Of a stretch of DNA of 50,721 nucleotides, positions 8,487 to 50,721 are shown in pieces. The position numbers were made by a program, and so were the translations under genes. The number at the start of each line of letters is the position of its first letter. The stretch's first letter is position 1. Below the pieces are notes generated by a model. It worked only from the letters and a program-made list of their open reading frames with translations, searched no databases and was not told the DNA's origin. The stretch is from a virus. The DNA lies in the IMG/VR virus record IMGVR_UViG_3300000227_000005, positions 1 to 50,721 of that record. The stretch is one strand, 5' to 3'.

Positions 8487-8813
8487 TTAAGGTTCCACAA
8501 ATTCAAATGTAGAGACATCCATCCAAAGACCATCAGTTGCAGAAATACTTAAATCAACTGAAGATACTTTTAATTGTTTTCCATTCAAATTTAAACGACT
8601 ATCTGAAATAGTTATCCAATCATTTGGATAGATTATCGTTTTTGGAAATGTTTTAAAAGTTCGTCTAATAGTTGTATAATAATTTCCTTGTGAAGGATCA
8701 TCCAAAAAACGTGTTCCTCTTGCGACAGCCATACTTTCAGTCGTAATTAGAGTATCTTGTATAATCGAAGCCTCAATATCTCCATTTCCACGAATCACTT
8801 TGACATTAATCAT
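8487..8813 (-). CDS. Tail-cluster protein following the hub gene
   Basis: A 108-residue protein starting MINVKVIRGNGD. The ATG at 8813 has a GGTGGA ribosome-binding site nine bases upstream and lies just after the stop of the hub-like gene. A longer in-frame version starting at 8882 would overlap that gene by 65 bases and is rejected. The sequence is mixed beta/alpha with no recognisable catalytic motif (TIIYPNDWITISDSRLNLNGKQLKVSSVDLS is beta-rich across residues about 60-90). By position it is a baseplate or hub accessory. Confidence 0.5.
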   Translation of the reverse strand: MINVKVIRGNGDIEASIIQDTLITTESMAVARGTRFLDDPSQGNYYTTIRRTFKTFPKTIIYPNDWITISDSRLNLNGKQLKVSSVDLSISATDGLWMDVSTFEFVEP

Positions 8814-32934: not shown

Positions 32935-33470
32935 AGTAAAAAAAGAAAATAGGGGGGGCGTTACTCGCCGTGGCAGTTGTTTTCTGTTGTATTCCTTTTT
33001 TTAGTAGGAGAATCAGAAAACAAGCACAGTAAAAATTATAACCTTCCTGTGTTACGAAAATTAAACTCCAAATCCATAACACAGAGGTAACTTATCTTTC
33101 GCTTTATCAGGCGTGAATTAAGTACGGCTCACCACACCGCCCGTGCCGAACACTAAAGTAGTCGGCTACTTCGACTGTAAAAGCATGAAGCAAGTACAGT
33201 CTATTACTGCCACGTATGAATAGCCTGTTTATCCCCGAAGGGAGTCAGCCCCCTTTAACATCCAAGACCACGAAAGCAAAAGTTTTATTTACCCTCCACC
33301 AATATATTTAAAACTTTTAAATAAAACGGTCGGAATATTAGATGGGTACAACCTCCGTTTTGGCACTACAGACTTTTAAAAAAGGGTTTTTACCAACATA
33401 TCAACTGCCTTAAACACCAAGCAGACGGTAGGGATGTTAGGCATGTTTAACCACCGTTTTGGTACAAACT
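32935..33470 (-). ncRNA. Candidate large structured RNA between terminase and portal
   Basis: About 45% G+C at 33061-33300 (108 of 240 bases) in otherwise very AT-rich DNA, with no gene. On the minus strand it shows several stems: AAGTAG-CCGA-CTACTT (33157-33172); GACTGTA/TACAGTC (about 33172-33203); CTGTGTTA/TAACACAG (about 33047-33085); and TCCC-TTCG-GGGA, a UUCG tetraloop stem (about 33233-33244). It carries two copies of a related roughly 45-base element (ACGGT/ACCGT-type stems near 33327-33367 and 33425-33467). A GC hairpin followed by C5 and a T-rich tail (down to about 32935) could be its terminator. It does not match tmRNA, RNase P or a tRNA to my eye. Confidence 0.45.
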
Positions 33471-33605
33471 TTTCAATTTTAGTTTTCAGTTTTAGTTTTC
33501 AGTTTTAGTTTTCAATTTTAATTTTCAATTTTAATTTTCAATTTTAGTTTTCAGTTTTAATTTTCAATTTTAGTTTTCAATTTTAATTTTCAATTTTAGT
33601 TTGTT
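33471..33605. repeat. 12-bp tandem repeat after the large terminase gene
   Basis: About ten copies of a 12-base unit, TTTTCAGTTTTA or TTTTCAATTTTA (plus-strand reading), lie directly before the candidate structured RNA. Copies alternate mainly at two positions. The rest of the gap to the terminase stop (33606-33699) is AT-rich with no recognisable element. Confidence 0.85.
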
Positions 33606-33699: not shown

Positions 33700-36636
33700 T
33701 CAATAAGTTCCATAAAGTTTTTCTTTCTGATAATAATTCCCAAAATCTTTGTTTGAAAGGTTCCTACTTCGAAAATTATATGAGGTTAAGTTTCTTCCAC
33801 CATACAAACACCACATCAAAGAAAAGATAGTATCATCTTGGACACCATGAGAATCATTTTTCTCTGGACTTCCAAACCATTTCTTATTTTGATCATGATC
33901 GAACATCAAAAGTTCTTCAGTGAGAATATTATCAGTTTTTGTTCCTGGAACATATAATTTTGGACTCTTGAATCTGCCTTGGTGAATAGAAAGGAAAAGT
34001 TCTTTAAATGCTTCTCTTTGCTTGTCATAGGTTGGGAACACGTGTTCAAACATAATTCCCTTTTCTTCTCCCCAATTCAACATATCCCATGAACCATATC
34101 GTTCACTACACAGAACATCAATGCCATCAAGTAGCCAATGAACTTCTTCAAGATAATCTTTTGCAAGATCAAGAGAATTGTCTGGAACTGCGAAAACTCC
34201 AACAAGGAAATAAATATATCTTGGATTCAAAAGATCGATGCTTGAAACTAAATGAGGATTGGTTCGGCTATTCGGTAAGCCCTTGGCAACCACTGTGACG
34301 ACACTTCTCGCTCTTATATGCTTAGCAAAAGGATCTGCCATGTCTAAACCAGCCAGTATAGCAAAATCAGTCTGAAAATGGTTTGAGAGCGTCATCAATG
34401 CATCCAATCCTATTGGTTTCGGTTGTGAAAAGCTGTCACAAAGTTTGTAAAGTTTATCCATTGGCATCAAACGTGATTCCAAATTTTTAATCTTGTTTTG
34501 AAGTATTGTTAAATTTTTATTAAACTCATGCACCGAAGTAATCTTGTTTTGAAGATTATCAATGGCGATCATTGCGTTTTTTCGATCATTCAATATCGAT
34601 GTTACCACTTCATGATTTAATTCAGTGTTATCTGCTCCAAGAAATCCAATTTCATCAACTATTTCCTTTGTGAAAACTTTTTGACTACTGGCTTCCCACA
34701 AATTTTGGAAATAACGTTCAAACTCACCAAAGGGAAATTTAGAACGATAATCTTCTAACTGAGCCTGATCCATGTTCGGATTCCAATAATCTTCCTGCTG
34801 ACCTCTCAGGCTATATCTATAAGAAAAATATATTGTGGTGGTTTTTTGCATCAACCAACTAATATATAATTTATAAAGAATATGATCTTTTGAAGATACA
34901 GTAGAGTCAATAACACCAAGGGCATTTGGGATATTACGAATGGAACCATCAAGTTGAACAAAAAATTTGGGATTTTTCATATCAAAAATTTCAGAGAAAG
35001 TATATCCAGTAATATTAGACACAATACCAGAAAATGAAGATATAGAACGAATAATACTTTTTACATTTCCATTCCTGTCTGTGAGTCTGATTTCTTTCTC
35101 TTGAATATTTTTTTGACCACCTACCATATCCAACAAAGCAGGAGAATTCAAAATAATATCTCTCATAATATCAAAATGCACGAATTTAACCTGATCCTTG
35201 GAGTTTGCTCCAAGCATAATTTGTTGCCGTGGCCAATTAAAAAACTTCCAAAGTTGGATAAGACATGCTGCAAGAGAATTATGTGTAACTGTAAAATCAC
35301 CTCGAACATATCTACCGTTACCATCCAACATAAATCCGTAGTATTCTTGTTTTCCAACAGATTTAATTTCTTTAATGTTGGATAAGAGAATATCTTTGTT
35401 CATTCTTCTTGAAGAAACAACTTTAAGTCTTGTTGGAATAACAAAATAGTCCCCTGAGATTCCAATTCTATAATATTCTCCTTCAAAATTTAATTTTTTT
35501 ATTCTTCCAATAATTTTTGTTGCCTCTGCATAGAAACCAAGAGATCTTGCAAGAAATAGGATATCATCACAAAGAACTTTTCTTTTGGTTATGATACAAA
35601 AAAATTTTCTGTTTAAACAACTATCACTATCGATCAATCCAGCAAGCAACTTCATTCTGTTTTCTCTGGAATTGATTTTATATTCTTGTGGAATATGTTT
35701 GTTTTCAATAAGATTATATTCTCTTAAAAGGTTTAATAAATGATTTTGTTCTTGATGATCATTTTCAACAATAGAATAGAGTGTCTCCTTGGTTGTTTTT
35801 ATCTTTTTTTGAACAGATACAGTTTGTTTAATTTCTTTTGCATACCATTCTATATATTCAACAATTTCTTTATTCATGGTTGTGATAGAAGGATATGTAG
35901 AAACTCTATCACCAAGCCATAGTCCAAGAAAATAAGGATCGATTTTTAATTCTTGTTCCGGAAATTCTATTGGAATTCGAAAGAGCATGTGGTTATTTTT
36001 AAAATAATTGGACTGTTTTTGGAAATCATTAACAGAAATATCTATAATTTTGCCATATTCTTCATTTTTTTTAAAAATACTTGTCTTATGTCTAACATTT
36101 GTTTTTTTCTTTAGGGATAGAACATGGTCCCCTGTGACAAACAAAGATTCTCCTCTATTTGGCTTAATCTCAAATAATTCTTCCTTCCCATTTTTAAGAG
36201 ATAAAACTTTACGTGGTGTGTTATCATCCCCCATGAGAAGGTCTCCAATGGCAACATCTTCTACTTTTTTGACAGTACCATCATACATCAAAACTCTGCT
36301 GCCCTTCCGTTCACACTTAGATTCACCTCTTTGCCAGCAAAGAATAATCAATCTATGCTTAAATCTATTATCTTTCATCTGAAGAGCTTCACGAAGTGCT
36401 TCTTTTACATTTTGCCAAAAATCATTTGGACTTCTATTTGTTCTTGGATTCTTCTTTTTAGGAAGATTTCTCAATGGACACCAGGAAGCCACGTCTGATC
36501 CTTCCTGATAAATGGAAATATAAACAAAATCCTCACACCATTTTACAAACCCTTCCCATCCATTTCTATACTGAGCGATTGAGACTGGAGAAATATTCTT
36601 AATTGGATCAATTCTGCGCTTCAAGATTTTGGACAT
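33700..36636 (-). CDS. terL: Terminase large subunit, interrupted by an intein
   Basis: A 978-residue precursor. I chose the ATG at 36636 because AGAAGGTGG lies five to six bases upstream; a GTG three codons earlier overlaps that site. The ATP-binding loop reads WQRGESK then, after the intein, SLAACLIQLW. Splicing would restore RGESKSLAA, a Walker A motif. The C-terminal nuclease shows FAILAGLDMADPF, IDVLCSERYGSWD and SHGVQDDTIFSL, with the acidic residues expected of an RNase H-like packaging nuclease. The mature enzyme (about 632 residues) would cut and pump DNA into the prohead through the portal. The gene overlaps the small-terminase-like gene upstream by 29 bases. Confidence 0.9.
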   Translation of the reverse strand: MSKILKRRIDPIKNISPVSIAQYRNGWEGFVKWCEDFVYISIYQEGSDVASWCPLRNLPKKKNPRTNRSPNDFWQNVKEALREALQMKDNRFKHRLIILCWQRGESKCERKGSRVLMYDGTVKKVEDVAIGDLLMGDDNTPRKVLSLKNGKEELFEIKPNRGESLFVTGDHVLSLKKKTNVRHKTSIFKKNEEYGKIIDISVNDFQKQSNYFKNNHMLFRIPIEFPEQELKIDPYFLGLWLGDRVSTYPSITTMNKEIVEYIEWYAKEIKQTVSVQKKIKTTKETLYSIVENDHQEQNHLLNLLREYNLIENKHIPQEYKINSRENRMKLLAGLIDSDSCLNRKFFCIITKRKVLCDDILFLARSLGFYAEATKIIGRIKKLNFEGEYYRIGISGDYFVIPTRLKVVSSRRMNKDILLSNIKEIKSVGKQEYYGFMLDGNGRYVRGDFTVTHNSLAACLIQLWKFFNWPRQQIMLGANSKDQVKFVHFDIMRDIILNSPALLDMVGGQKNIQEKEIRLTDRNGNVKSIIRSISSFSGIVSNITGYTFSEIFDMKNPKFFVQLDGSIRNIPNALGVIDSTVSSKDHILYKLYISWLMQKTTTIYFSYRYSLRGQQEDYWNPNMDQAQLEDYRSKFPFGEFERYFQNLWEASSQKVFTKEIVDEIGFLGADNTELNHEVVTSILNDRKNAMIAIDNLQNKITSVHEFNKNLTILQNKIKNLESRLMPMDKLYKLCDSFSQPKPIGLDALMTLSNHFQTDFAILAGLDMADPFAKHIRARSVVTVVAKGLPNSRTNPHLVSSIDLLNPRYIYFLVGVFAVPDNSLDLAKDYLEEVHWLLDGIDVLCSERYGSWDMLNWGEEKGIMFEHVFPTYDKQREAFKELFLSIHQGRFKSPKLYVPGTKTDNILTEELLMFDHDQNKKWFGSPEKNDSHGVQDDTIFSLMWCLYGGRNLTSYNFRSRNLSNKDFGNYYQKEKLYGTY
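35278..36315 (-). other. Intein with LAGLIDADG homing endonuclease, inside terL Walker A
   Basis: A 346-residue insertion (precursor residues 108-453). It starts with Cys (CERKGSRVLMYDGTVKKVED, block A), has TGDHVLSL (block B), and ends FTVTHN directly before Ser, the classical C-terminal splice block with His-Asn followed by a Ser nucleophile. In the middle are two LAGLIDADG-type helices, FLGLWLGDRVS and LLAGLIDSDSCL. The acidic residues of both helices (GD and DSD) are present, so the endonuclease may be active. It lies between the Lys and Ser of the P-loop, where the gene is least able to tolerate imprecise loss. Confidence 0.92.
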
Positions 36637-37168
36637 TGGTCCCACCTTCTATAACTTCATAGTAAGATTTTCCATTGAAGAATCCAACTTGTTCCAATGG
36701 TCTCCTTTTAGCATTTGGAATAGAAACATCGAATCCAATTGTGTGCCAGGTTTTTTCGATTAATTGGATAGTGTTCCTAATTTCCTTGAACAAGGGAGTA
36801 ACTTTTGCAGTTCCGGTTACAGAAACTCCAACAACATCGATAGTGGAAAATTCCGCCATTTTCAATCTGCAAAGAATCTTGTATAATGGTATTAAGTGCA
36901 TACCAATTCTATAGGCAATATCCTCCGTCATTGGACTTGGATAATTTCGGATTATCATGTCCAGCACGGAGGACATATAGGCAAAAATCACTTCACATTT
37001 TTCTGGTTTCTCCCCACTCAAAAAATAATCGCAAATAGAACTGCATCCACAATGTTCTGGATCACAAGCATTTATAGCGTTCCAATAAATCATTTCTCTG
37101 ATGATAGTCTCACCAGATTTGGATATAGTACCAAGTTTTCTATGTCCAATAATTGCATTTCTTTTCAT
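36608..37168 (-). CDS. Putative terminase small subunit
   Basis: A 186-residue protein directly upstream of and overlapping terL. I chose the ATG at 37168, which follows AGAGGTG; an ATG eight codons earlier lacks a site. Residues about 35-55 hold a cysteine cluster (ACDPEHCGCSSICDYF), perhaps binding zinc. The C-terminal half (TGTAKVTPLFKEIRNTIQLIEKTWHTIGFDV) resembles the helical part of P27-type small terminases. Position is the main argument. The cysteine cluster is unusual for this class. Confidence 0.5.
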   Translation of the reverse strand: MKRNAIIGHRKLGTISKSGETIIREMIYWNAINACDPEHCGCSSICDYFLSGEKPEKCEVIFAYMSSVLDMIIRNYPSPMTEDIAYRIGMHLIPLYKILCRLKMAEFSTIDVVGVSVTGTAKVTPLFKEIRNTIQLIEKTWHTIGFDVSIPNAKRRPLEQVGFFNGKSYYEVIEGGTNVQNLEAQN

Positions 37169-37210
37169 AACACCTCTTTTTTGGATAAACATTTCAAATT
37201 GAAAAACGAA

Positions 37211-37396
37211 TTAAAGTTTCTTATAAAAAAATGTATCCAATTCATCGAGTAATTGGCTAAGTTCGTCATTACAAGGATAGTTCGTCCGATAAGTTTTGAT
37301 AATGTTCCTAAGACCATAATTCAAACCGTATTGAATTCTTTGCTTATTTACAGACTGAATTTTATTAAACTTCGTTTCCTTGTAATATTTTTTCAT
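37211..37396 (-). CDS. Small protein, first gene of the leftward operon
   Basis: A 61-residue basic protein starting MKKYYKETKF at the ATG at 37396, preceded by AAAGGAGGTGAT, a perfect ribosome-binding site. The sequence (NKQRIQYGLNYGLRNIIKTY and following) looks helical, with an acidic end (DELSQLLDELDTFF). A well-spaced promoter-like sequence lies directly before it, so it is probably the leader gene of the terminase operon. No function can be assigned; a small regulator is possible. Confidence 0.65.
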   Translation of the reverse strand: MKKYYKETKFNKIQSVNKQRIQYGLNYGLRNIIKTYRTNYPCNDELSQLLDELDTFFYKKL

Positions 37397-37418
37397 AAGA
37401 ATCACCTCCTTTGGGATT

Positions 37419-37447
37419 AAAATAATGTATTTACATATCCAAGTCAA
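37419..37447 (-). promoter_or_regulatory. Candidate leftward promoter of the terminase operon
   Basis: On the minus strand TTGACT (37447-37442), 17 bases, then TATTTT (37424-37419). The predicted RNA start is a few bases before the AAAGGAGGTGAT ribosome-binding site of the first leftward gene. The -35 box is the same (TTGACT) and the spacing the same as in the rightward promoter at 41465-41493, which supports both. A TTGGATA motif lies in the spacer. Confidence 0.6.
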
Positions 37448-37457
37448 TAAATATTGC

Positions 37458-37718
37458 CTATAATATCCAAAAAATGAATTTTAAGACAAAACGGATTCTT
37501 TCATGGAACAAAATCTGTTTTCCTATGAAATTAATCATATTTTCCTTGTAGTTATCCAATTTATGTGCATGTAATAAAATCAAGCACTTACAAATTCCGT
37601 AATTCAAATTGTCATTTTCTTTCTCATTTTTAGAGAAAAGAATAACTAACTGATTTATTTGAAAATAAAGAAATTCCTTCCGTATGTGAGAATTGAGATT
37701 CGGAAACCCCATTGTCAT
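37458..37718 (-). CDS. Doubtful small ORF, possibly a decayed relative of its neighbour
   Basis: An 86-codon frame with no ribosome-binding site. Part of it (NDNLNYGICKCLILLHAHKLDN) resembles the LNYGLRNIIKTY region of the downstream 61-residue protein in spacing and pattern, so it may be a related gene that has lost its start. Bases around 37640-37690 recur in degraded form near 38040-38090 (an AACTAACTGATTTA core, then CCGTAT), suggesting duplicated and decaying DNA. Confidence 0.25.
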   Translation of the reverse strand: MTMGFPNLNSHIRKEFLYFQINQLVILFSKNEKENDNLNYGICKCLILLHAHKLDNYKENMINFIGKQILFHERIRFVLKFIFWIL

Positions 37719-38673
37719 TTTTTACTGTATCCAACAAAGATAAAACTAAAAAATTTATCAAAAGCCCTTATTATTATCACATCCAACACATATTTTCCTC
37801 AAATAAAATAATAAATTATCCAAAAGTATTTCTTTTTGCAAAGAACTCAAGTAATTTCTGCAAACTCAATCATTATTCAAAATTAAATTCAAGAAATTCT
37901 CAAAATAATAAAAAATAATAATAAAATTTAATTTCAGAATAGAATTTTTCAATTATCCTGAACTAATAAAATCAATAACTTACAAAAACATAAATTAAAC
38001 CAAAAATAGGATTGTATTTTTCCAGACAAAATTTTCTAAAAAATTAACTAACTGATTTAATTGAAAATAAAAAAATCCCACCGTATATGAAAAGAAAAAG
38101 CAACGAAACAGATTGTTATTTTCTATTCCATATCCAATAAATTAAAACAAACCCAATTCATTAAATTTCCTTATAATTCCCACATCCAACTACATCTAAA
38201 TAAATTTCTAATATCCAAAATAAAACAAGAAAATCAGGAATAAATTTATCAAAATTCTCCCATAGTAGACCATATCCTTTTTTAGCACAAATTTTAAAGA
38301 ACAAAGGAATAAATTCCCCCATGTCCAATAAATTAATTAAAAAGAATTGTCTAACAACCTTTTCCAATTTAAAGAACCCTACAAAGAATAAGACCTAGCC
38401 ACAAGGCTCTCAGTAAGTCTGAACACCATTTTCTTGCAAGAAACTCAATCCTTAAAAACAAAAGAATTTCCTATATCCAAAATAAAATCAAATTTAATAA
38501 TAAATCTAATAAAAATTTGTATCCAACACTATCAAAAATATTATTAAAAAGAAAAATAAAGAGAAGTGTAGGGAAGAGTTATATAGAATATATTCCTCTG
38601 TACATATTCTTCTATTGTATATTTTTCCTTTTCTTTGCAATAGAAGAAAAAACTCTCCCCTATATAAAATTCT
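37719..38673. other. Non-coding AT-rich region with scattered TATCCAA boxes
   Basis: No convincing gene. Frames such as 38161-38367 (minus) lack ribosome-binding sites. Single TATCCAA-type boxes occur about every 50-120 bases, nearly always in the TATCCAA orientation on the plus strand: about 37728, 37818, 38148, 38214, 38472 and 38518, with variants ACATCCAAC and ATGTCCAAT. Around 38395-38450 is a slightly less AT-rich patch. The region lies between the leftward promoter and the repeat arrays. Confidence 0.6.
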
Positions 38674-39245
38674 GTATCATATTCAATAAAGTTTCTGTAT
38701 CCAACAAAGATTTTATATTTCTCCACATAAAAAATTATAGTTAAGTGCCTTGTATCATATCCAACAAAAACCTAAAGGATTACACAAAAAATTATAATAG
38801 ATTATTTTATATCATATCCAATAAAGTTTCTATGTTCGATAAAGTTTCTGTATCCAACAAAAAACTTAAAGGATCACACAAAAAATTATAATAGATTATT
38901 TTATATCATATCCAACAAAATTTCTGTATCCAACAAAAACTCAAAGAATCATATAAAAAATTGTGATAGATTGTTTTGTATCATATCCAACAAAGTTTCT
39001 ATGTTCGATAAAATTTCTATGTTTGATAAAGTTTTTGTATCCAATAAAAAAATCTTAAAAATCACATAAAAAATTGTGATAGATTGTTTTGTATCATATC
39101 CAACAAAGTTTCTATATTTGATAAAGTTTTTGTATTCGATAAAGTTTCTATATTCGATAAAATTTTTGTATTCAATAAAATTTCTATATTTAATAAAGTT
39201 TTTGTATCCAACAAAAAAACCTTAAAAATCACACAAAAAATTATG
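38674..39245. repeat. Modular tandem repeats with TATCATATCCAACAAA units
   Basis: Six related units of about 60-115 bp begin with TATCATATCCAA (or TATCATATTCAA) at 38674, 38753, 38810, 38904, 38979 and 39092. Each has a head box, a variable number (0-6) of 18-base steps of the type AAAGTTTCTATGTTCGAT, a second box GTATCCAACAAAAA, and a tail containing CACAAAAAATTATAATAGAT or a close variant. Most 18-base steps look like mutated boxes (TTCGATAAAG against TCCAACAAAG). The plus-strand frame 39084-39287 is only a reading of this repeat. Confidence 0.85.
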
Positions 39246-39373
39246 GTTAGGTGCCTTTTTCCAAGTCACTTTTTTGTCTATACTTAGAACATAGGGGGGG
39301 ATATCCGATCTACAGATAACTATGAATAATCATAATCATATTGTTATTGCTACTGCTACTGCTATTGTGATTG

Positions 39374-40108
39374 TATCCAACCGTTGGATACGGAATATAT
39401 TCCGTATCCAATAAGTATTAATCTTCATCTATTAATTATATATTACTACTGCTACTGCTACTGCTATTGTGATTGTATCCAACCGTTGGATACGGAATAT
39501 ATTCCGTATCCAATAGACATTGATTTTCATTTATTGATTATATATTGCTACTGCTATTGTGATTGTATCCAACAAGTATCGATCTTCATCCCATTGACCA
39601 TGTATTGCTATTGCTATTGTATCCAATAAATATCGATCTTCATCATTAATTATATATTACTATTATTGCTATTGTATCCAACCGATGGATACGGAATATA
39701 TTCCGTATCCAATAGACATTTGTATCCAACCGATGGATACGGAATATATTCCGTATCCAATAGACATTGATTTTCATTTATTGATTATATATTGCTACTG
39801 CTATTGTGATTGTATCCAACCGTTGGATACGGAATATATTCCGTATCCAATAAATATTGATCTTTACCATTGACTATGTATTATTACTGCTACTGCTATT
39901 ATTACTGATACTGCTATTACTATTATATCCAACCGATGGATACGGAATATATTCCGTATCCAATAAGTATTGATCTTCATCCCATTGACTATATATTGCT
40001 ATTGCTATTGTATCCAATAAGTATCGATCTTCATCATTAATTATATATTGTTACTGCTATTGCTATTGTATCCAACCGATGGATACGGAATATATTCCGT
40101 ATCCAATA
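39374..40108. repeat. Seven 40-bp palindromic modules, each with three TTGGATA-type boxes
   Basis: Exact or nearly exact copies start at 39374, 39476, 39675, 39723, 39813, 39926 and 40069. Each begins TATCCAACCGTTGGATA (or CGATGGATA), an 8-bp inverted repeat with one central base. It then overlaps a longer palindrome centred on CGGAATATATTCCG, flanked by GGATA and TATCC; in the CGTT version the arms are perfect over 28 bp. The intervals contain TTGCTACTGCTATTGTGATTG-like and TATTGATCTTCATC-like repeats and lone TATCCAA boxes (for example 39566 and 39619). The coding-like plus-strand frames reading MDTEYIPYPI are translations of the palindrome. Confidence 0.97.
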
Positions 40109-41464
40109 AGTATTGATCTTCATCATTGACTATTACTATTGTACATATACTTTTGGATATAATAAAAAGAAAAACTTGTAAAATCAATTACATAACAATC
40201 AGCAATTTTTTTGTATTGCTATGAAAAATTTATAATTTTTAATCCGTTGAAATCTTTTGGATAGAACATTTTGCAAGATGAAAAACAAAAAATCTTCACC
40301 CTTAAAATTATAATTTCACATCTTATCAATTTTGCTTTTAGTATATTAAAAGGTAAAATTAAATATGGATAAAAATATTTTTCCAAAACTTATACAATAT
40401 CTGTAAATTTAAATTCAATAATAACACCATATGATTTTTATAATCTTTGTTTCAACAAATATAAATTTTTTTACACTCGGTATTAATATTTCCAATTTAA
40501 AAAAAATAAAATTTCTTCCAAACAAAATATGTAATCAACAAAAAACATGATAGCGTAATTTTTAGATTATTTTAATAAATTATTTCATTTTGGCAAAACT
40601 AAAATATTAAATATAGCACAAATTTTTAGAGGTTTTACAATATTAAATCATTATCAATTCTTTTTAAAAACATATTTCCAAAAAATTGCAGACTATTTCA
40701 ATTAATTTTAATCATATTCCTGAAAACAGCTTTCAACCAATTTAATAAAATAGCAACCAATTTAATAAAATGACTTTCAATCAATTTAATAAAACAACTG
40801 TAAAATAGCTTTCAACCAATTTTCAATCAATTTAATAAAATAGCAACCAATTTAATAAAATAGCTTTCAATCAATTTTCAACCAATTTAGTAAAACAACT
40901 GTAAAATAGCTTTCAATCAATTTAATAAAACAGCTTTCAAATTATTTCAAACTCAATTTGCAATTAAAACATTTATCAACTTAGCAAATTTAGAAATCAA
41001 TTATTTTCTGGCTTTTTCTGAAATTTCAACAGTCTTAAACAACATTAATAAATCGATTTATTTCATTTAAATTTATAGCGCATTTTTTATTACATATTTG
41101 AAATTAAATAGGTTATTTTTAAAATTCTCCAAGAATTTCAAATATATAAGTCCCATTCCCTATTACAGTTTTAAGGTTATCATCATAAATCACCGATTTT
41201 ATTGGATTTCACTGATTATATGTCTTTATTTTCATAATCCAAAATTTTGTTTTTTTGTTCAATGTATGAATTTTATCAAATGATTTTAGAGACTTGTCTT
41301 TATTCCAAAATTTAAAGTTTTGGAAATTTTTTATTTTCCCCCATATCCAAAAAATAACAATTTTTATAAAATCTTGATTTTATGAGATAAACCATTGTTT
41401 TTATTAAATAAACCTCTATTCTACGATCTAAATGAGGTTGCTTCATTTTTCGTAAAAATTTTTC
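40109..41464. other. Non-coding AT-rich region with a degenerate repeat at 40727-40948
   Basis: Extremely AT-rich with no gene I can support. At 40727-40948 the phrase CAATTTAATAAAATAGC alternates with CTTTCAATCAA and TTTTCAACCAA variants (about ten copies), and AAAACAACTGTAAAATAGC occurs twice. A lone TATCCAA lies at 41344. The rest has runs of A and T only. It ends at the rightward promoter. Confidence 0.6.
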
Positions 41465-41493
41465 TTGACTTTCTCGTTTTGGCTTGATATATT
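41465..41493 (+). promoter_or_regulatory. Strong rightward promoter of the replication/accessory operon
   Basis: TTGACT (41465-41470), 17 bases, then TATATT (41488-41493), with a TG one base before the -10 box (extended -10). It heads about 110 bases of leader before the first plus-strand gene. The match and spacing are the best in the window. It shares TTGACT with the divergent leftward promoter. Confidence 0.75.
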
Positions 41494-41602
41494 ATAACCA
41501 AAACAAATTAATCTTGCCAGAGAAAGGAGAAAAGGGGTAGAAGCGGAAGGCATCGTGAAAGAAGTATATTTACATCACACTACATTATTTAAAGGAGGCA
41601 AT

Positions 41603-41888: not shown

Positions 41889-41927
41889 AGTATCCAATCT
41901 ATATATATAATATATAGATTGGATACT
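41889..41927. repeat. Perfect 18-bp inverted repeat with paired TTGGATA boxes
   Basis: AGTATCCAATCTATATAT (41889-41906) and ATATATAGATTGGATACT (41910-41927) are exact inverses separated by ATA. The outer parts are the TATCCAA/TTGGATA motif. No T-run follows, so it is more likely a protein-binding site than a terminator, although a hairpin in RNA is also possible. It lies between the first two rightward genes. Confidence 0.9.
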
Positions 41928-42690: not shown

Positions 42691-42768
42691 ATACACACCC
42701 ACTAGTATTCCAGTATCCAATATTAGTAAAAACTCAACTATAAAACCGTATTCTTGTCAACAGGAACC

Positions 42769-42832
42769 ATTTGAACGAAAACTCAAGAACCACATTTAGT
42801 ATTTGAACGAAAACTCAAGAACCACATTTAGT
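42769..42832. repeat. Direct 32-bp tandem duplication
   Basis: The 32 bases from 42769 (ATTTGAACGAAAACTCAAGA and following) are repeated exactly at 42801-42832. They lie in the 268-bp gap between two accessory genes. A weak promoter-like TTGACA occurs at about 42887, with a poor -10 (TAGGAA) 17 bases later. Confidence 0.85.
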
Positions 42833-42958
42833 ATTTTATTCCAAACTTTTGTTAACGAAGTTTGCAAAAAAATATGAATCTATTATTGACAGAACTAAAA
42901 TTTATTGATAGGAAATGAATCAGGTTTTTCAATCAATTTCTAATTGAAGGAGAATACA

Positions 42959-43572: not shown

Positions 43573-43731
43573 TTGGATATAATAATAAGTGGATTTGAAT
43601 TTAAAGAACTTAAATTAGGGATGTTTCCAAAACTTAATCTTAAACAATTAAATCAGAGTGTTTTCAACAAAATTTGGAAATTGGAAATGCTTTATATTGA
43701 AAACGAAAAACAACTTTTGGATAAAAACTAA
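43573..43731 (+). CDS. 52-residue protein with TTG start
   Basis: AAAAGGGAG precedes TTG at 43573, opening a frame for MDIIISGFEFKELKLGMFPK and 32 more residues, ending ENEKQLLDKN. It continues the operon 17 bases after the previous gene. The last codons (TTG GAT AAA AAC TAA) form the first unit of the 22-bp iteron array that follows. No function recognised. Length and spacing make it plausible; the TTG start keeps confidence moderate. Confidence 0.45.
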   Translation: MDIIISGFEFKELKLGMFPKLNLKQLNQSVFNKIWKLEMLYIENEKQLLDKN

Positions 43732-43815
43732 ACCATTTTTGGATAAAAACTAAACCATTTTTGGATAAAAACTAAACCATTTTTGGATAAAAACTAAACC
43801 ATTTTTGGATAAAAT
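43715..43815. repeat. 22-bp iterons carrying TTGGATA
   Basis: TTTTGGATAAAAACTAAACC recurs with exact 22-bp spacing; the GGATA is at 43719, 43741, 43763, 43785 and 43807. Five direct repeats of about 22 bp next to replication genes resemble plasmid and phage origin iterons. The following 300 bases (43816-44121) hold only scattered TTGGATA/TATCCAA-type boxes (about 43859, 43908, 43949, 43995 and 44090) and tiny frames without clear starts. Confidence 0.85.
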
Positions 43816-44121
43816 GATTTTAAAACCAAAAATACTTAAAAGATTGATATTAAATTTATTTGGATAGAATGCAGAAAATATTGAGAAAGAATCCCTGTTT
43901 AAAACTAAAATTGGATGAAATTTTACATAATTTGGATTTAATAATTATCCAAAAAATTTAGACTTCGTAGTAGGATGTCTCTTAGATCAAGAATTGGATA
44001 CGGAGGGATAAAAACACAAAATAAAGTATTATGTAATTGAGCTTAATCCAAAAAATGTAACTAAATAACCAATATTTTTCCAACTTTATCCAAAAATAAT
44101 ATTATAGGGGGAATGAATGAA

Positions 44122-44562
44122 ATGGAATGTTACCTTTGTAAATTTTATACAAAAAAATTTTGTACAAAATTGGACAGATTCGTAAACAGAGAATCCAAAA
44201 AATGTAATGGATTTATCCTAAATACAACCATAATTTGTATTAATAATCAATATTTCTTAGATACAGAAGCTTGTATAGCAAGACAAAAAACTCATAAATG
44301 TAAATGTAAATGCAAAACAGGTACACTAATCAGGCAGTTTATTGAACAAGGTAAACACAAAGCCATAATAAAAAGGAGAAAATCATGTCGAGAAACACAG
44401 CAGCAGCCGAAAACCTCAGCAATGCCTATAACATCCTTTATGGAAACGCCTTCATTGAATTTTCAGAAATCAAATATGACTACCAAGCCTTCAATCAAGA
44501 AAAAGCAGTTCTCGAACGAGACAAATTCGAAAAAGGTCTTACCAAAGAGGCAAAGGAAGTGA
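44122..44562 (+). CDS. Cys-rich small protein overlapping the next gene
   Basis: A 146-residue frame. The ATG at 44122 has GGGGG ten bases upstream and gives MECYLCKFYTKKFCTKLDRF, then KKCNGF. The C-x2-C-x7-C-x12-C pattern suggests a zinc or iron-sulphur site in the first 35 residues. Further Cys and Lys follow (HKCKCKCKTGTL). From 44385 the frame overlaps the next gene, which has the better start site, and its C-terminus there (RRKSCRETQQQPK and following) looks like an out-of-phase reading. Perhaps only the first 90 residues matter. Function unknown. Confidence 0.4.
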   Translation: MECYLCKFYTKKFCTKLDRFVNRESKKCNGFILNTTIICINNQYFLDTEACIARQKTHKCKCKCKTGTLIRQFIEQGKHKAIIKRRKSCRETQQQPKTSAMPITSFMETPSLNFQKSNMTTKPSIKKKQFSNETNSKKVLPKRQRK

Positions 44563-44732
44563 TTGATATTATTATAAATTGTCCGAATGAATTATTGGAA
44601 AATGTTGACAAAGGGGGATTATCTTGGAATAAATTTGTTAAGTTTCTTTACACCAAAGGTTGGACAGACTATCGTCTTAGAAAAATAAACAAGGAAATCA
44701 AAAGCTTTCTTAATTGGAGGAATAATGAATAA
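44385..44732 (+). CDS. Unknown helical protein before the SF2 helicase
   Basis: A 115-residue protein. The ATG has AAAAAGGAG seven bases upstream. The sequence is mainly helical: SRNTAAAENLSNAYNILYGN, YDYQAFNQEKAVLERDKFEK, then WTDYRLRKINKEIKSFLNWR. Its stop overlaps the start region of the helicase gene by eight bases, so the two are translationally coupled and may act together. No known family recognised. Confidence 0.6.
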   Translation: MSRNTAAAENLSNAYNILYGNAFIEFSEIKYDYQAFNQEKAVLERDKFEKGLTKEAKEVIDIIINCPNELLENVDKGGLSWNKFVKFLYTKGWTDYRLRKINKEIKSFLNWRNNE

Positions 44733-46140
44733 ATTAATTAGGGTTGAAAAATTGGATGCTATTATGTCCAAAATAAGTATAGATGATTGGAAGGCAATCG
44801 AACCCTGTCTTTCTTACAAATCTTTTTATTACAGACAAACAAGATTTCATAAGGAACGCGTTGATTACATTAAGAAATGTCTCATTTATCAAAAAGGAAG
44901 GTTTGTCTATTTTTATTCCGGGTATTTGCCAAGAATAAAAAATTATTTGGAATCGAGACACAAAGAATTACAGATATATGAAGAAGAACCCATTGATTTT
45001 TCCTTCAATTCCAAAAAAGCGGTAAACTTATTCAAAAGACATGGTATCCAATTAAGGGATTATCAAATTGAATTGATTGAAACCGGTCTGTCCAATCGAA
45101 ATGGAATTATAAAAGCAGTTACAGGAACAGGAAAATCTTATATCATTCTAGGCATGATTGAAAGCATATTGGATACAAATAACTTTCTTATTTTATGCCA
45201 TAATTCTTCTGTAGTTACACAGCTTTATAATCAGGTGAAAACATTCTTTAGAAAAAAAACATGTTTAAAATTCACAGGAGACACATCAGTTGAATTAAAA
45301 CAAAAAGATTTCGATCAAAATATCATAATTGCAACTATCCAATCCTTCGTAAAAGTTCCACCGGAGTTTTACATTGATTATTTCTTTGCTGTTTTTGTTG
45401 ACGAGGCGCATAGAGTTAGTTCAATTGATGGTCAATATGGTTTTGTTTTATCCAAAATGCTTGCACCCATTAGAATTGGATTCACTTCCACACCGCCGGA
45501 ACAAGATGAAGCAAAATTTGCCTATGAGGGCTTGTTAGGGCCAATCATAGGGGAATTGCCCATGGAAGAAGCCATTGATAAGGGTATTATTGCAAAACCT
45601 GTTATAAAGCTTATCAAGGCCAAATTCCCACCCCATCTAAAAGAGCTCAGAGACTATTACAAAGTATATTATGAAGGTATTGTATCCAACGAAAGCAGAA
45701 ATCATCAGATTTTGGACATAGTGCAAAAAATAATCGATTCTAATCAAACTGTTTTAGTCTTTATAAATAAAATAGAGCATGGGGAAAATTTAGCAAAGAT
45801 TGCTTTTGAAAGACATATTGATCTAGTGTTTATTCAAGGTTCTTCATCCAACGATATTAGGGAAAGGGTAAAAAGGGAATTAAATGCAGGAGTTATAAAA
45901 GCTGTTATTTGCACAACTGTTTGGAAAGAAGGCGTTGATATCCCTAATCTGCAAAATATCATAAATGCAGGAGGAGGAAAGTCTGAAATAACAGTTTTAC
46001 AGTCAATTGGACGTGGTCTAAGAAAAACTTTGGAAAAAGAAACCGTAACGATTTATGATTTTTTTGATTTAGGTCATTATTATCTTGTTCTTCATTCAGG
46101 TGAACGCATAAGTATTTATTTCGAACAGGAATGGCTATGA
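44725..46140 (+). CDS. SF2 DNA/RNA helicase (DEAH-type, UvsW-like)
   Basis: A 471-residue protein with a GGAGGA ribosome-binding site. Helicase motifs appear in order: Q-like region (LRDYQIELIE at about 110-119), motif I AVTGTGKSYI (131-140), motif II VDEAHR (225-230), motif III GFTSTP (252-257), and motif VI QSIGRGLRK near residue 425. The layout (short N-terminal domain, two RecA-like lobes) resembles the T4 UvsW class, which remodels stalled forks and D-loops in phage replication. It is encoded just before the primase, overlapping it by four bases (ATGA). Confidence 0.85.
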   Translation: MNKLIRVEKLDAIMSKISIDDWKAIEPCLSYKSFYYRQTRFHKERVDYIKKCLIYQKGRFVYFYSGYLPRIKNYLESRHKELQIYEEEPIDFSFNSKKAVNLFKRHGIQLRDYQIELIETGLSNRNGIIKAVTGTGKSYIILGMIESILDTNNFLILCHNSSVVTQLYNQVKTFFRKKTCLKFTGDTSVELKQKDFDQNIIIATIQSFVKVPPEFYIDYFFAVFVDEAHRVSSIDGQYGFVLSKMLAPIRIGFTSTPPEQDEAKFAYEGLLGPIIGELPMEEAIDKGIIAKPVIKLIKAKFPPHLKELRDYYKVYYEGIVSNESRNHQILDIVQKIIDSNQTVLVFINKIEHGENLAKIAFERHIDLVFIQGSSSNDIRERVKRELNAGVIKAVICTTVWKEGVDIPNLQNIINAGGGKSEITVLQSIGRGLRKTLEKETVTIYDFFDLGHYYLVLHSGERISIYFEQEWL

Positions 46141-47021
46141 TAAATCTTAGCTCAATCGATATTATCGAATATTTGGATACAGTAGGAATTCAATACACAA
46201 TGCACGGGAAAAATGTTTCACAAAATTGGATAGGTATTCAATGCCCCTTTTGTGACGATAAATCGAATCACCTTGGCATTAACATTAAAAGCAAAGCTTT
46301 TTCCTGTTTTAAATGTGGCACCAAAGGAAATATAATTAAATTAGTGCAAGAACTTGAACATATAAATTGGATACAGGCATTAAATAATTTACAACAGTTC
46401 TCAAAAACAGTTATCCAATTCAACGAAAAGATTACTGCTGTATCCAATTCCTTTCCAAAGATGAATAAACTTGGTAAAGTTCATAAGGAATACTTATCCA
46501 ACAGGGGACTTGATCCTGATTTTATGGAAAAAAAATACGCTCTAAAATCAGGAGCAAATTTCACAAAATATCAAACAAGGTTAATTATTCCTTTTTTTGA
46601 AAAAAAGAGAATGATCTCATTTACAAGCAGAGACGTGTCCAATTCTATTGAACCAAAATATTTACATCCATCAAGAGATGAGGTTATCTTGGTTCCAAAA
46701 GACTTAATATTCAATATTGATTCGGTAAAGAATTCTTGTATTGTAACAGAAGGTTGTTTTGATGTATTTAAAATTGGAGACGGAGCAGTTGCTTTATCTG
46801 GAACGAAATACACACAAAGGCAAGTTTCTTTGCTCTCCAATATTGAACGAGTTTTTATTTTGTTTGACCCTGAACCTATGGCACAAAAACAAGCAGGTAG
46901 ATTATGTAAAGAATTATCATTTCTGACACACTCAGAGGTTATTTTACTTGATATTGATCGTGATCCGGGAGATATGACGGCTTCGGAAGTAAAAGAGCTT
47001 AGAAAGGAACTTGGGTTATGA
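46137..47021 (+). CDS. DnaG-type primase (zinc finger plus Toprim)
   Basis: A 294-residue protein. I chose the ATG at 46137 (MINLSSIDIIEYLDTVG), six bases after AGGA; it overlaps the helicase stop as ATGA. Residues about 35-65 hold a CHC2-type zinc finger: CPFCDDKSNHLGI, then FSCFKCGTKGNIIKLV. The Toprim core follows: IVTEGCFDVFKI near residue 200 (Glu and Asp) and VFILFDPEPM near 240 (Asp). The protein is short for DnaG, as in phage primases lacking a helicase-binding C-domain. It would prime lagging-strand synthesis with the DnaB-type helicase encoded downstream. Confidence 0.85.
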   Translation: MINLSSIDIIEYLDTVGIQYTMHGKNVSQNWIGIQCPFCDDKSNHLGINIKSKAFSCFKCGTKGNIIKLVQELEHINWIQALNNLQQFSKTVIQFNEKITAVSNSFPKMNKLGKVHKEYLSNRGLDPDFMEKKYALKSGANFTKYQTRLIIPFFEKKRMISFTSRDVSNSIEPKYLHPSRDEVILVPKDLIFNIDSVKNSCIVTEGCFDVFKIGDGAVALSGTKYTQRQVSLLSNIERVFILFDPEPMAQKQAGRLCKELSFLTHSEVILLDIDRDPGDMTASEVKELRKELGL

Positions 47022-47176
47022 AATGGTTTCTATCAAAAACAGAAGGTAATTTCCTGAAAAACAAATATTGGATAGGTTTCCAAAATTTAAAGACTCACGT
47101 AAAATTTCAAAGAAAGAATTGGATAGATGGAGGGAAGCATGCGATTCAAAAAGCAAGCCATCAATTTAAAGTATAA
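47018..47176 (+). CDS. 52-residue basic protein overlapping primase and HTH genes
   Basis: ATG at 47018 overlaps the primase stop (ATGA) and encodes MKWFLSKTEGNFLKNKYWIG followed by 32 residues rich in Lys, His and aromatic residues, ending HQFKV. AAGGA lies about ten bases upstream. Its last 38 bases overlap the HTH gene in another frame. Small, basic and between replication genes, it might bind DNA or a replication protein. No family recognised. Confidence 0.45.
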   Translation: MKWFLSKTEGNFLKNKYWIGFQNLKTHVKFQRKNWIDGGKHAIQKASHQFKV

Positions 47177-47498
47177 CCCAGCTTTGGTAAAAAATAATTT
47201 ATTGCAGATTTTAATTAAGAATAAATTTGGAACCCAAGCAAAATTTGCAAAAAAATTAAAACTATCACAAACTATGGTGAGCAGACTTGTTCACGGTTAT
47301 GTTCCGAACGTAATGTTTGCTTTGAAATTATCCAAATTATTTCAAATCAAAATAGAGGAACTATTCAATGGCATATCTTATTCAACGAAAAGGGATTCTA
47401 AGAAGAAAGTTGAACAAGGGAATTCAAATAACCCTGGAAAAAGAAAAACACAAAAAGAAAATGAAAAGGCTGGAGGAACAAAAACAAAAATTGGATAA
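47139..47498 (+). CDS. Helix-turn-helix DNA-binding protein (Cro/CI type)
   Basis: A 119-residue basic protein. ATG at 47139 follows GGAGGGA. Residues about 28-70 form a Cro/CI-type helix-turn-helix: KNKFGTQAKFAKKLKLSQTM, VSRLVHGYVPNVMFALKLSK, LFQIKIEELF. The C-terminal 40 residues are very Lys-rich and overlap the next gene. It may be the regulator of this operon or the protein that recognises one of the box arrays; neither is shown. It lies between the primase and helicase genes. Confidence 0.7.
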   Translation: MRFKKQAINLKYNPALVKNNLLQILIKNKFGTQAKFAKKLKLSQTMVSRLVHGYVPNVMFALKLSKLFQIKIEELFNGISYSTKRDSKKKVEQGNSNNPGKRKTQKENEKAGGTKTKIG

Positions 47499-48162
47499 GA
47501 TCAAAAATAGTAAGATGTATCCAATTTTTGAATCTTTCTATGATGGAATTATAAAACCAGCACAAACAACAAAAGGGTTTTATTGGGAATTAAGATCGTT
47601 TGATTCAATGGTCCGTAAGCTCAGGATGGCATTAACAGGCAGATTATTTGATACAACAAACACACCGGAAGAATTTCAAAGCCTATTAGGCGAGAAATTC
47701 ACTATTGACGACATAATGAAAGCGATTGAAATACATAAACTTGCTTTGCAGAAACAATATTATCCAAAAAATAAAAAGATAATGAAAATTCATTTAGATT
47801 CCTTTATTCTAAATGAATTTTCAAAATCATACATGACAACAAGTTTTTTGTCGTATTGGACACTATTTGATCCAAAAATGGTGGTTGAACGAATCAATTC
47901 AAACAAAACACAATTATTGGATACATTGATATTGAAATATAAAGAAGATATACCTATCCAAAAACAGAATAAAATACTTAAAACCCTTGAATTGATAGAG
48001 GAAGACATACTAAGTCTCAAAACGAGTATTATATATCCAACAACACTTGAAAAATTCTTTGAAGATTATCTTAAAGAATTTGGATTATACCCTTCAGATA
48101 TTGCAACCTATGATTTCAGGAAAAGATTCGTACAAAACTATAGGGAAAGATTCACAATATGA
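47368..48162 (+). CDS. Unknown replication-module protein (helicase-loader position)
   Basis: A 264-residue protein. ATG has GAGGAA nine bases upstream. It starts inside the HTH gene (131-base overlap) in another frame. The first 50 residues are basic and coiled-coil-like (LEKEKHKKKMKRLEEQKQKL). The rest is helical (FYDGIIKPAQTTKGFYWELR, then MVRKLRMALTGRLF). It ends overlapping the DnaB-type gene by four bases (ATGA). Its place just before the replicative helicase is typical of helicase loaders, but no ATP-binding motif is present, so this remains a guess. Confidence 0.5.
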   Translation: MAYLIQRKGILRRKLNKGIQITLEKEKHKKKMKRLEEQKQKLDKIKNSKMYPIFESFYDGIIKPAQTTKGFYWELRSFDSMVRKLRMALTGRLFDTTNTPEEFQSLLGEKFTIDDIMKAIEIHKLALQKQYYPKNKKIMKIHLDSFILNEFSKSYMTTSFLSYWTLFDPKMVVERINSNKTQLLDTLILKYKEDIPIQKQNKILKTLELIEEDILSLKTSIIYPTTLEKFFEDYLKEFGLYPSDIATYDFRKRFVQNYRERFTI

Positions 48163-49661
48163 AAATAAACAGACTGAAATTGGATACGTCAGTTGAAAAA
48201 AGAATCCTTGCTGGTTTAATGGTTTCTAAAGATTTTTTGGATAAGGTCTATCCAATTTTGAATTTAAATTATTTTGAAACTCCACATATGAAATCTTTAG
48301 TACAACTTGCATCCAAATTTTATGAAACATATTCACAACCACCTTTAGATCATATCAAAGAAATGGTTCTTGGAGAATTTCATGATAATGAATCATTGGA
48401 ACCTATGTTAAAAATTATAGAAGATATTTTAGCTTTGTACAAAACAGGGAATTTTAACATCGATTACATGGTGGATCAAGCTATTGCGTTTTTTAAAAGA
48501 AAAGAATTGGAAATAATAATATCCAACACACAAATATTATTGGATAGGGGAGAAACAGAAAAAGCAGAAAGAGAAATATCGTCGTTCCATAAGATAATAA
48601 AGCCAACTTTTGAAGAATCCGATTTTATTTTTTCAGACTCAGCAATAATGTCGATCAATAATATTACGGATGATGATTGCTTGCTGAAAATGCCAAAGGA
48701 CTTTGGCAACTTTATAGGAGGATTAAATAGAGGGTGGCTTGTTGGTATCTCAGGGCCGTTTAAGAGAGGCAAAAGCTGGTTATTGAATGAGTTTGCTGCT
48801 ATTGCCTCTCTTTCCGGTTTGAGAGTGGCTTATTTCTCTTTAGAAATGGGGGCAGTCGACGTAAGAAAAAGAATTTACCAACGATTGACTGGAACATCCG
48901 ATAATTCTGGCATTATCCAATTTCCTTGTTTCGACTGCCAAAAGAATCAAAAAGGCTCATGTACAAAGGATATCAGAACAAATAAATATAGGTTCCCTGG
49001 AGCATTTAATACCAAATCCAAATATAAAGCTTGTTCAGCATGTAAAAACATTGTAGAAGAAAGGGGTGATTACGAATTATGTGTTTGGTTTGAAAATATT
49101 GAAGTCCCACAAATCTCCACCGCTATTGTCCACGAAGCAATAATCGCTTTGAAAAAAATTGGAAAAGCAAATATCTGGTTAAAAACAAAACCAAGATTTT
49201 CTGCTTCTGTTGGAGATATTGAAGCAGATTTAGATGGGTTGGAAATATCCAATAATTTTATTCCTGATGTTATTATAGTCGATTATGCCGACATTCTTCA
49301 AGCAGATGATAAATCTTTGACTGGTGTCCAAAAGGAAGATGAAGTCTGGATGACACTAGCAAGAATGGCTACAAAAAGAAATGCTCTTGTTATCACAGCA
49401 ACACAATTAAATAAAGATTCCTTGGCTGCCAAGCAGATTAGCGCATCACACACAGCGCGTTGGATAGGGAAATTGGGCCATGTTGACGCAATGTTTGCAC
49501 TGAACCAAACCCCTGAAGAAAAATTGATTGGTGTAATGCGTATATCTATTTTAGAGCATAGGCACAAGCATTTTATTGAAACTCAAAATTGTTATTTGCT
49601 GCAAAATTTATATGTAGGGCAGCCACATTTGGATTCATATATGGAGGAAATAAAACCATGA
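48159..49661 (+). CDS. Replicative DNA helicase (DnaB-type) with Cys-rich insertion
   Basis: A 500-residue protein. Residues 1-150 match the DnaB N-domain layout (VEKRILAGLMVSKDFLDKVY). The RecA-like core has Walker A GPFKRGKS (199-206), FSLEM (226-230), Walker B VIIVDYADIL (371-380), TATQLN (413-418) and EHRHK near 466 as the arginine-finger region. Between FSLEM and Walker B is an insertion with six cysteines at 257, 260, 268, 292, 295 and 308 (CFDCQKNQKGSC, then CSACKN), probably a zinc site, which is not usual in DnaB. It would unwind DNA at the fork with the neighbouring primase. Confidence 0.88.
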   Translation: MKINRLKLDTSVEKRILAGLMVSKDFLDKVYPILNLNYFETPHMKSLVQLASKFYETYSQPPLDHIKEMVLGEFHDNESLEPMLKIIEDILALYKTGNFNIDYMVDQAIAFFKRKELEIIISNTQILLDRGETEKAEREISSFHKIIKPTFEESDFIFSDSAIMSINNITDDDCLLKMPKDFGNFIGGLNRGWLVGISGPFKRGKSWLLNEFAAIASLSGLRVAYFSLEMGAVDVRKRIYQRLTGTSDNSGIIQFPCFDCQKNQKGSCTKDIRTNKYRFPGAFNTKSKYKACSACKNIVEERGDYELCVWFENIEVPQISTAIVHEAIIALKKIGKANIWLKTKPRFSASVGDIEADLDGLEISNNFIPDVIIVDYADILQADDKSLTGVQKEDEVWMTLARMATKRNALVITATQLNKDSLAAKQISASHTARWIGKLGHVDAMFALNQTPEEKLIGVMRISILEHRHKHFIETQNCYLLQNLYVGQPHLDSYMEEIKP

Positions 49662-50170
49662 GACAAATCAAGCCATTTATTTACTTTGGCGCAAAAAAAG
49701 TAACAGATATCGGAATAAATTGGAACTTTGCTGAAAGCTATGAACACGTCAAGAATGTTGTAGTAGATTATCCAATTTCAAAATTCAAAAAAAAAGGATT
49801 ATATATTTTTGGAAACGCAATATATCCACCAATTATTTCAAATAAAGTTCTTGGGTACATTCTTTGGTATAATAAGTCTAATTTTCTTGGAAAAGAATCT
49901 ATATCAGCTTTTAATGGGCTTAATTGTGAATTAGTTTTTGAAATATCCAAACAAGATCAGTTTCAAAATGCTGTTGATGATGCTCATGCTATTGTTCTTG
50001 AAGGATATGTCGATAAAGTGACACTGTTATTTAATTCAGCAAATGCATTCGATAAAAAAATGGTACGAAGCGCAGCAGTTGATGATTTTCAGCTTGTTAT
50101 AAAAAGTTCCCCTGGGAAAAATTATCAAAATTGTCCCACCGACTTTATCGGAAACTGTAGTATAATTTAA
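49658..50170 (+). CDS. Unknown protein after the DnaB-type helicase
   Basis: A 170-residue protein. The ATG at 49658 has GGAGG upstream and overlaps the helicase stop (ATGA); an earlier in-frame start lies inside the helicase gene. Mixed alpha/beta: PFIYFGAKKVTDIGINWNFA, then VVVDYPISKFKKKGLYIFG, GYILWYNKSNFL, and VDDAHAIVLEGYVDKVTLLF. I recognise no motif. Co-expression with helicase and primase suggests a replication accessory. Confidence 0.55.
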   Translation: MRQIKPFIYFGAKKVTDIGINWNFAESYEHVKNVVVDYPISKFKKKGLYIFGNAIYPPIISNKVLGYILWYNKSNFLGKESISAFNGLNCELVFEISKQDQFQNAVDDAHAIVLEGYVDKVTLLFNSANAFDKKMVRSAAVDDFQLVIKSSPGKNYQNCPTDFIGNCSII

Positions 50171-50219
50171 TTGAAGTCAACGAGTAGTAAAAACAAAATA
50201 ATTCAAGAAAGGGAACGAA

Positions 50220-50721
50220 ATGAAACCAATTAATGAAATAAGTTTAATAGAAATGCGGGGAGTAATCAGGGATTTGAATGTTGCTTTAACCAAGCAAGGT
50301 CAGCACAGAATCAAAATTACCGGTGAAATAAGTGATGTGTTGCAGGGGTTTACTGAGGCTGTTGAAAACTTTTCGGATCAAGAAAACCTGCCTGAGTCTG
50401 TTATTGATTTTTACAATGATTTATACGAAGACGAACAAGAATTGGATACAGAAAACGAACAAGAATTGGATACAGAAAACGAACAAGAATTGGATACAGA
50501 AAACGAACAAGAATTGGATACAGAAAACGAACAAGCTGTTGAAAACTTTTCGGATCAAGAAAACCTGCCTGAGTCTGTTATTGATTTTTACAATGATTTA
50601 TACGAAGACGAACAAGAATTGGATACAGAAAACGAACAAGAATTGGATACAGAAAACGAACAAGAATTGGATACAGAAAACGAACAAGAATTGGATACAG
50701 AAAACGAACAAGAATTGGATA
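50220..50721 (+). CDS. Acidic tandem-repeat protein, 3' end outside window
   Basis: ATG at 50220 follows AAAGGGA. The first 55 residues (KPINEISLIEMRGVIRDLNV, then TKQGQHRIKITGEISDVLQG) look like a normal small domain. Then comes a larger unit, AVENFSDQENLPESVIDFYN and DLYEDEQ, followed by four copies of the octapeptide ELDTENEQ. The whole unit then occurs again, with at least five octapeptides before the window ends. Each octapeptide is encoded by the same 24 bases, which contain TTGGATA (starts at 50442, 50466, 50490, 50514, then 50619, 50643, 50667, 50691 and 50715). The protein is strongly acidic and probably disordered. Confidence 0.7.
   Translation, partial: MKPINEISLIEMRGVIRDLNVALTKQGQHRIKITGEISDVLQGFTEAVENFSDQENLPESVIDFYNDLYEDEQELDTENEQELDTENEQELDTENEQELDTENEQAVENFSDQENLPESVIDFYNDLYEDEQELDTENEQELDTENEQELDTENEQELDTENEQELD

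Follow-up and report, generated by a model that had tools for sequence, protein, structure and literature searches.

The repeats described here, in an uncultured tailed phage, are best explained, with a probability of roughly 0.4, as a control hub between the late and early genes: a putative DNA-binding protein would assemble there on TRTCCAA boxes, meet weaker dispersed sites, and start replication and/or switch between early and late transcription. The observations behind this reading are an array of repeats, a genome-wide excess of one word, the conservation of that excess while positions turn over, and a dense region shared with relatives. In the window, i.e. the whole 50,721-base phage record that was analyzed, the genes up to 37,192 are oriented leftward and form the late set (major head protein, head maturation protease, 2,418-aa tape-measure-like protein, TerL and a TerS-like gene), and those from 41,555 onward are oriented rightward and form the early/replication set (UvsW-like helicase, primase, Cro/C1-type HTH and DnaB-like helicase). 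Relatives of about 91 kb suggest that the window represents about half a genome. The gap between the two sets has a GC content of 0.25, and the features in or near it are as follows:

36608–37192, minus strand: TerS-like gene, assigned by its position directly upstream of TerL, bordering the hub
37193–41554, no strand: the hub, nearly all non-coding, between the leftward late and rightward early genes
38690–39262, plus strand: box-rich repeats that end in CACAAAAAATTATGGTTAGGTGCC; contigs L010 (3005–3042) and L057 carry the related CACAAAAAATTTTGTGGTGAGGTGCC
39374–40106, plus strand: the array, ten units comprising seven triple-box modules and three single-box units
41889–41927, no strand: terminator-like inverted box pair with 18-bp arms, between two early ORFs

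The TerS-like gene is a conserved landmark, with 66–68% identity in the relatives. TerL (33700–36645) carries an intein-like insertion at about 35330–36315, which starts with CERKGSRVLMYDG, ends with VTHNS and is missing from the 652-aa TerL of the relatives. Further repeats comprise two non-coding AT-rich tandem arrays, at 40723–40941 (about 24 bp) and 33470–33602 (about 13 bp), and a 144-bp tandem repeat at 2024–2858 (5.8 copies, 92% matches) in a late gene, where it encodes KGYAMGGYNG... repeats.

Of all 7-mers in the window, TATCCAA is the most strongly over-represented, with 152 occurrences against 28.6 expected; for its extended form GTATCCAAY, 47 copies compare with an expectation of 0.95. 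Coding sequences hold 92 of the 152 words. When the genes were shuffled among synonymous codons, preserving proteins and codon usage and leaving region 50358–50721 out of the gene count, TATCCAA (73 observed, 18.8 expected) and TGTCCAA (50 observed, 10.6 expected) were the two highest-ranked of the 1,552 7-mers tested in the curated genes. Since the excess survives this shuffling, it is more than an effect of codon usage, and because both words rank at the top the box is better written as TRTCCAA (TTGGAYA on the other strand), which is asymmetric and not palindromic. Words in the genes of the window and of one relative, G3, favor the sense strand (84 sense vs 44 antisense, p 0.0003). The densest stretch of the window, 31 words in 2 kb, lies at 38–40 kb, and the hub as a whole contains 43 TATCCAA words, a density of 9.9 per kb, where its trinucleotide composition predicts 5.1 words. 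Local word arrays occur elsewhere: region 50358–50721 combines a 177-bp duplication with 24-bp repeats coding ELDTENEQ, each with TTGGATAC, which locally inflates the raw word counts, and 43708–43814 is a 22-bp tandem repeat (4.9 copies) with TTTTTGGATA.

The word is shared by a clade comprising the window and three syntenic phages, G1, G2 and G3 (helicase 71% identical), none of them known to be complete; G1 consists of two contigs of one dataset, G066 and G1a, which we take to belong to a single phage. TATCCAA also heads the 7-mer ranking in G2 (89 vs 19.1 expected) and in G3 (131 vs 32.0), and it is similarly in excess in the two G1 contigs (44 vs 13.7 and 101 vs 22.7). The form of the box differs, being TRTCCAA in the window and TATCCAM in the relatives. 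Within genes, measured against synonymous shuffles, it reaches 70 vs 19.2 in G3, 42 vs 13.9 in G066, 43 vs 9.3 in G2 and 27 vs 8.9 in G1a, and its codon-corrected rank is first in all of these except the last, where it is third. In aligned orthologous genes, 11 of 47 window words coincide with a word of G3, which carries 36 words of its own in the same genes; this coincidence lies above the background, in which 9.6% of 7-mers are identical, but is still a minority. Word positions thus mostly turn over between relatives, whereas abundance is maintained, and the abundance in these four phages is probably due to a putative reading protein. Distant relatives, with major head proteins 43–57% identical, show no TATCCAA excess. 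A distant relative (L011) carries GGGAGGTAGCTA 11 times between 1071 and 7605, in exact copies of one orientation spaced about 300–1,100 bp apart, which resemble a promoter- or ribosome-site-linked element. A seemingly similar word, CGAGTTC in contig G004, was set aside because it mostly forms a local cluster close to an end of that contig.

The dense region is likewise a property of the clade. In all four members the word-density peak adjoins the TerS-like gene in the same gap, reaching up to 35 words in the densest 2 kb of the relatives, where direct box arrays are accompanied by perfect palindromes of inverted boxes, e.g. TTGTTGGATAAATATTTATCCAACAA; a flanking element like CACAAAAAATTWTGGTKAGGTGCC is also common to the relatives. 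The 40-bp module is absent from the three relatives, which do keep the word, and an exact search of the viral contig collection for the module centre gave no match. With the gap cluster in all four phages and the module only here, the word-rich region is an old clade feature and the module a recent form, best read as a lineage-specific elaboration of the hub. The preliminary description of this DNA had named absence of the array from relatives retaining the motif as evidence against its proposal, and such absence holds for the module, though not for the word-rich region; its suggestion of an origin-like site, or a nucleation site for the reader of dispersed boxes, is compatible with the shared peak of direct and inverted boxes.

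The array of the window is made up of the following units, all on the plus strand:

39374–39411: module 1, T type, with perfect 17-bp and 28-bp palindromes
39476–39513: module 2, T type
39566–39572: single-box unit, no palindrome
39620–39626: single-box unit
39675–39712: module 3, A type, middle box ATGGATA
39723–39760: module 4, A type, 48 bp from module 3
39813–39850: module 5, T type
39926–39963: module 6, A type
40011–40017: single-box unit
40069–40106: module 7, A type

The 38-bp core TATCCAACCGWTGGATACGGAATATATTCCGTATCCAA has seven exact matches in the record, all in the array and starting at the first coordinates of the modules (reversed control, 0), which confirms the seven-copy array of palindromic modules of about 40 bp proposed initially. 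The cores are identical except at one T/A position (T in three, A in four). A 26-bp palindrome, TGGATACGGAATATATTCCGTATCCA, around AATATATT, is intact in all seven; the other palindrome first ascribed to every module, TATCCAACCGTTGGATA, is perfect only in those at 39374, 39476 and 39813, the middle box being ATGGATA, i.e. incomplete, in the remaining four. The seven modules are the only perfect loop-free palindromes of the window with arms of at least 11 bp, and in 30 dinucleotide shuffles the longest arm averaged 8.9 bp, with a maximum of 14. The three single-box units belong to the same repeat family, were overlooked initially, and are without the 31 bp that separate two direct GTATCCAA copies; they could have arisen by deletion between these direct repeats, or the modules by insertion into single-box units. 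Pairwise identity is 98.5% for the cores, 54% for the following 38 bp and 66% for the preceding 20 bp, and with the 48-bp tandem pair omitted it is 98.4% for the cores against 80–82% for the adjacent 17–25 bp, so that the original impression of preserved modules separated by drifting intervals is borne out. Over 101 bp, the units at 39473 and 39720 share 99% of their bases but not the T/A letter of the core, which makes exchange inside the cores likely. Box starts within a module lie 10 and 21 bp apart (31 bp in total), or about one, two and three helical turns; word spacings in the relatives cluster near 8, 15–16, 24–26 and 31–33 bp, and helical phasing is therefore not a clade feature.

From the boxes in both orientations, the conservation of the core amid divergence and the genome-wide word excess, we infer a DNA-binding protein with many sites, its identity and action being likewise proposed. 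Such a sequence-specific protein, most likely phage-encoded, would recognize asymmetric TRTCCAA, assemble on the dense direct and inverted boxes between the late and early operons, and also meet weaker single sites all over the genome. The hub would most likely initiate replication and/or switch early versus late transcription, and in the lineage of the window the boxes would have been packed into a 26–28-bp palindrome with one extra box and then amplified to seven copies. An origin or a transcription switch is the likely function given the position between the late and early operons and before the replication genes, with data compatible with either. The replication genes after the gap encode a helicase, a primase and a DnaB-like protein, and known initiator families gave no match among the proteins scanned. 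Towards the early genes, at the edge of the gap, the sign of the GC skew flips in both the window and G3; this is no proof of an origin because the coding strand switches at the same place. A second conserved direct-repeat array, with AACCACATTTAG in its unit and a period of about 28–32 bp, occurs at 42764–42838 in the window, at 8755–8900 in L010 and at 4191–4306 in L008, a short way upstream of a promoter-like TTGACA site preceding the replication operon.

Two early-region proteins come into consideration as readers:

44385–44732, plus strand: 115-aa protein, clade-conserved (58%), helical, low-confidence model
47127–47498, plus strand: Cro/C1-type HTH protein, the candidate named in the preliminary description

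The latter is a genuine HTH and the only classical DNA-binding protein recognized. Its orthologues in the relatives are 28–30% identical, with the recognition helix SQTMVSRL against YRHRIRQL, and the neighboring genes are 48–74% identical; since the helix differs between phages with an unchanged word, the HTH protein is a doubtful reader. The 115-aa protein is one of several candidates, and a host protein may also be the reader. Predicted structures were too poor for a fold search (pLDDT 60.5 for the 115-aa protein and 53.1 for the TerS-like protein).

In iteron-type origins of plasmids and phages, short boxes follow one another in tandem within an AT-rich gap by replication genes. The hub resembles them in its short direct-repeat array in AT-rich non-coding DNA beside replication genes, but differs in alternating box orientation, irregular spacing, the genome-wide word and the lack of an initiator gene recognized among the scanned proteins. 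It also differs from a DnaA-box origin, as it contains no TTWTNCACA sites and the window as a whole shows no excess of them (8 vs 12.2 expected). In cluster A mycobacteriophages (L5, TipsytheTRex), stoperators are 13-bp sites in more than 20 copies, located at promoters and in short intergenic spaces and bound by a known repressor (PMC9283540). As in that system, a short asymmetric site is repeated over a phage genome with orientation correlating with transcription; here, however, it measures 7 bp, has about 150 exact copies in 50.7 kb, lies mostly in genes rather than being confined to intergenic DNA, occurs on both strands without strict orientation, and has a putative reader. The 15-bp SPBRE, bound by MrpR in the Bacillus prophage SPbeta, likewise places one motif at many promoter or intergenic regions of a phage genome, whereas a dense array or an excess inside genes is not described in the portion of that report consulted (PMC10516654). 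HIP1 of cyanobacteria, the highly iterated palindrome GCGATCGC linked to methyltransferases, shares the large genome-wide excess but is a feature of cellular genomes (PMC4390886); the present word is non-palindromic, is found in phages and has a dense hub.

Several other readings were rejected. Although 81- and 62-aa ORFs are present in the array, several unit spacings break the frame. Predicted folding of both array strands is much more stable than that of shuffled sequences (z -8.3 and -9.4), but inverted repeats alone suffice for this, and an Rfam scan of 37.0–44.2 kb gave two sub-threshold miRNA matches, as palindromes would. TTGGATA is placed as a -35-like element on the minus strand at several boxes, yet total promoter-like matches equal those of shuffles, and box orientation differs in G3. 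A host word (uptake- or Chi-like) found no support: contigs sampled from the MAG bin with this phage show no enrichment (69 vs 57.6), although the bin may not be the host. The reversed-pattern control in genome searches was misleading, as relatives of the bin also exceed it. A contig labeled Chloroherpeton thalassium (DYLM01000100.1, SulCav sample) is 100% identical to window 43760–50491 (6.7 kb) and is probably the same phage binned into a bacterial genome, with an uncertain host assignment; the major head protein had no match in 296 genomes of the bin's phylum, and among 100 relatives of the bin, matches resembling spacers were only weak and chance-like.

Transcription control alone, with the boxes as operators or stoperator-like repressor sites and the array as the main operator cluster of a switch, is an unlikely but serious alternative. 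The hub sits between divergent operons, a Cro/C1-type HTH gene and an inverted box pair between early ORFs are present, words in genes favor the sense strand, and Cro/C1-type operators are generally similar in size to the 17-bp box pair. The majority of words nevertheless lie inside genes on both strands, the HTH recognition helix is unconserved despite the conserved word, and no integrase or lysogeny module was seen in the part of the window examined. Mycobacteriophage stoperators, which are asymmetric, dispersed and orientation-bound, speak for this alternative, although they lie in short intergenic gaps (PMC9283540). That the word is solely a genome-wide address (Chi-like, priming, packaging or DNA-organizing), the hub being merely free of coding constraint, appears rather improbable: the excess in coding sequences on both strands, the turnover of positions and the moderate strand bias agree with it, whereas that bias is weak for a polar guide, the sampled MAG bin, possibly not the host, is unenriched, and a seven-fold palindromic module looks over-elaborate for a by-product.

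A mutational or recombinational origin, in which palindromes with direct repeats duplicate, delete and convert and the array has no function, is quite improbable as a full account, since it accounts neither for a specific 7-mer being in excess inside the genes of four phages nor for the dense region lying at the same place in each. The likeness of the single-box units to deletions between direct GTATCCAA copies 31 bp apart, the likely exchange inside the cores and the many tandem repeats of the genome nonetheless speak for it, and core identity could reflect recombination and not selection, which counts against the control hub, as do the lack of helical phasing in the relatives, the absence of DnaA-box enrichment in the window and the word excess inside late genes that an origin alone leaves unexplained. 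A parS-like centromere of a phage-plasmid, also proposed initially, is hardly credible: clustered inverted boxes can resemble parS arrays, but ParA, ParB and ParM were not found among the proteins scanned, which represent part of the ORFs of a partial genome.

A broader formulation of the control hub, tentative and on balance doubtful, is that the phage clade carries a genome-wide asymmetric 7-bp self-address, under selection inside genes for abundance over position, with the hub of arrayed and palindromic copies as the nucleation point where a phage protein would organize or replicate the genome; we found no description of a self-address of this kind in phages. Should the word serve as a functional address, four related phages would be keeping its abundance in genes despite turnover, and what reads such words, and for what reason, could be tested directly on a small genome. 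For fishing out the reading protein, the array would then be the obvious bait.
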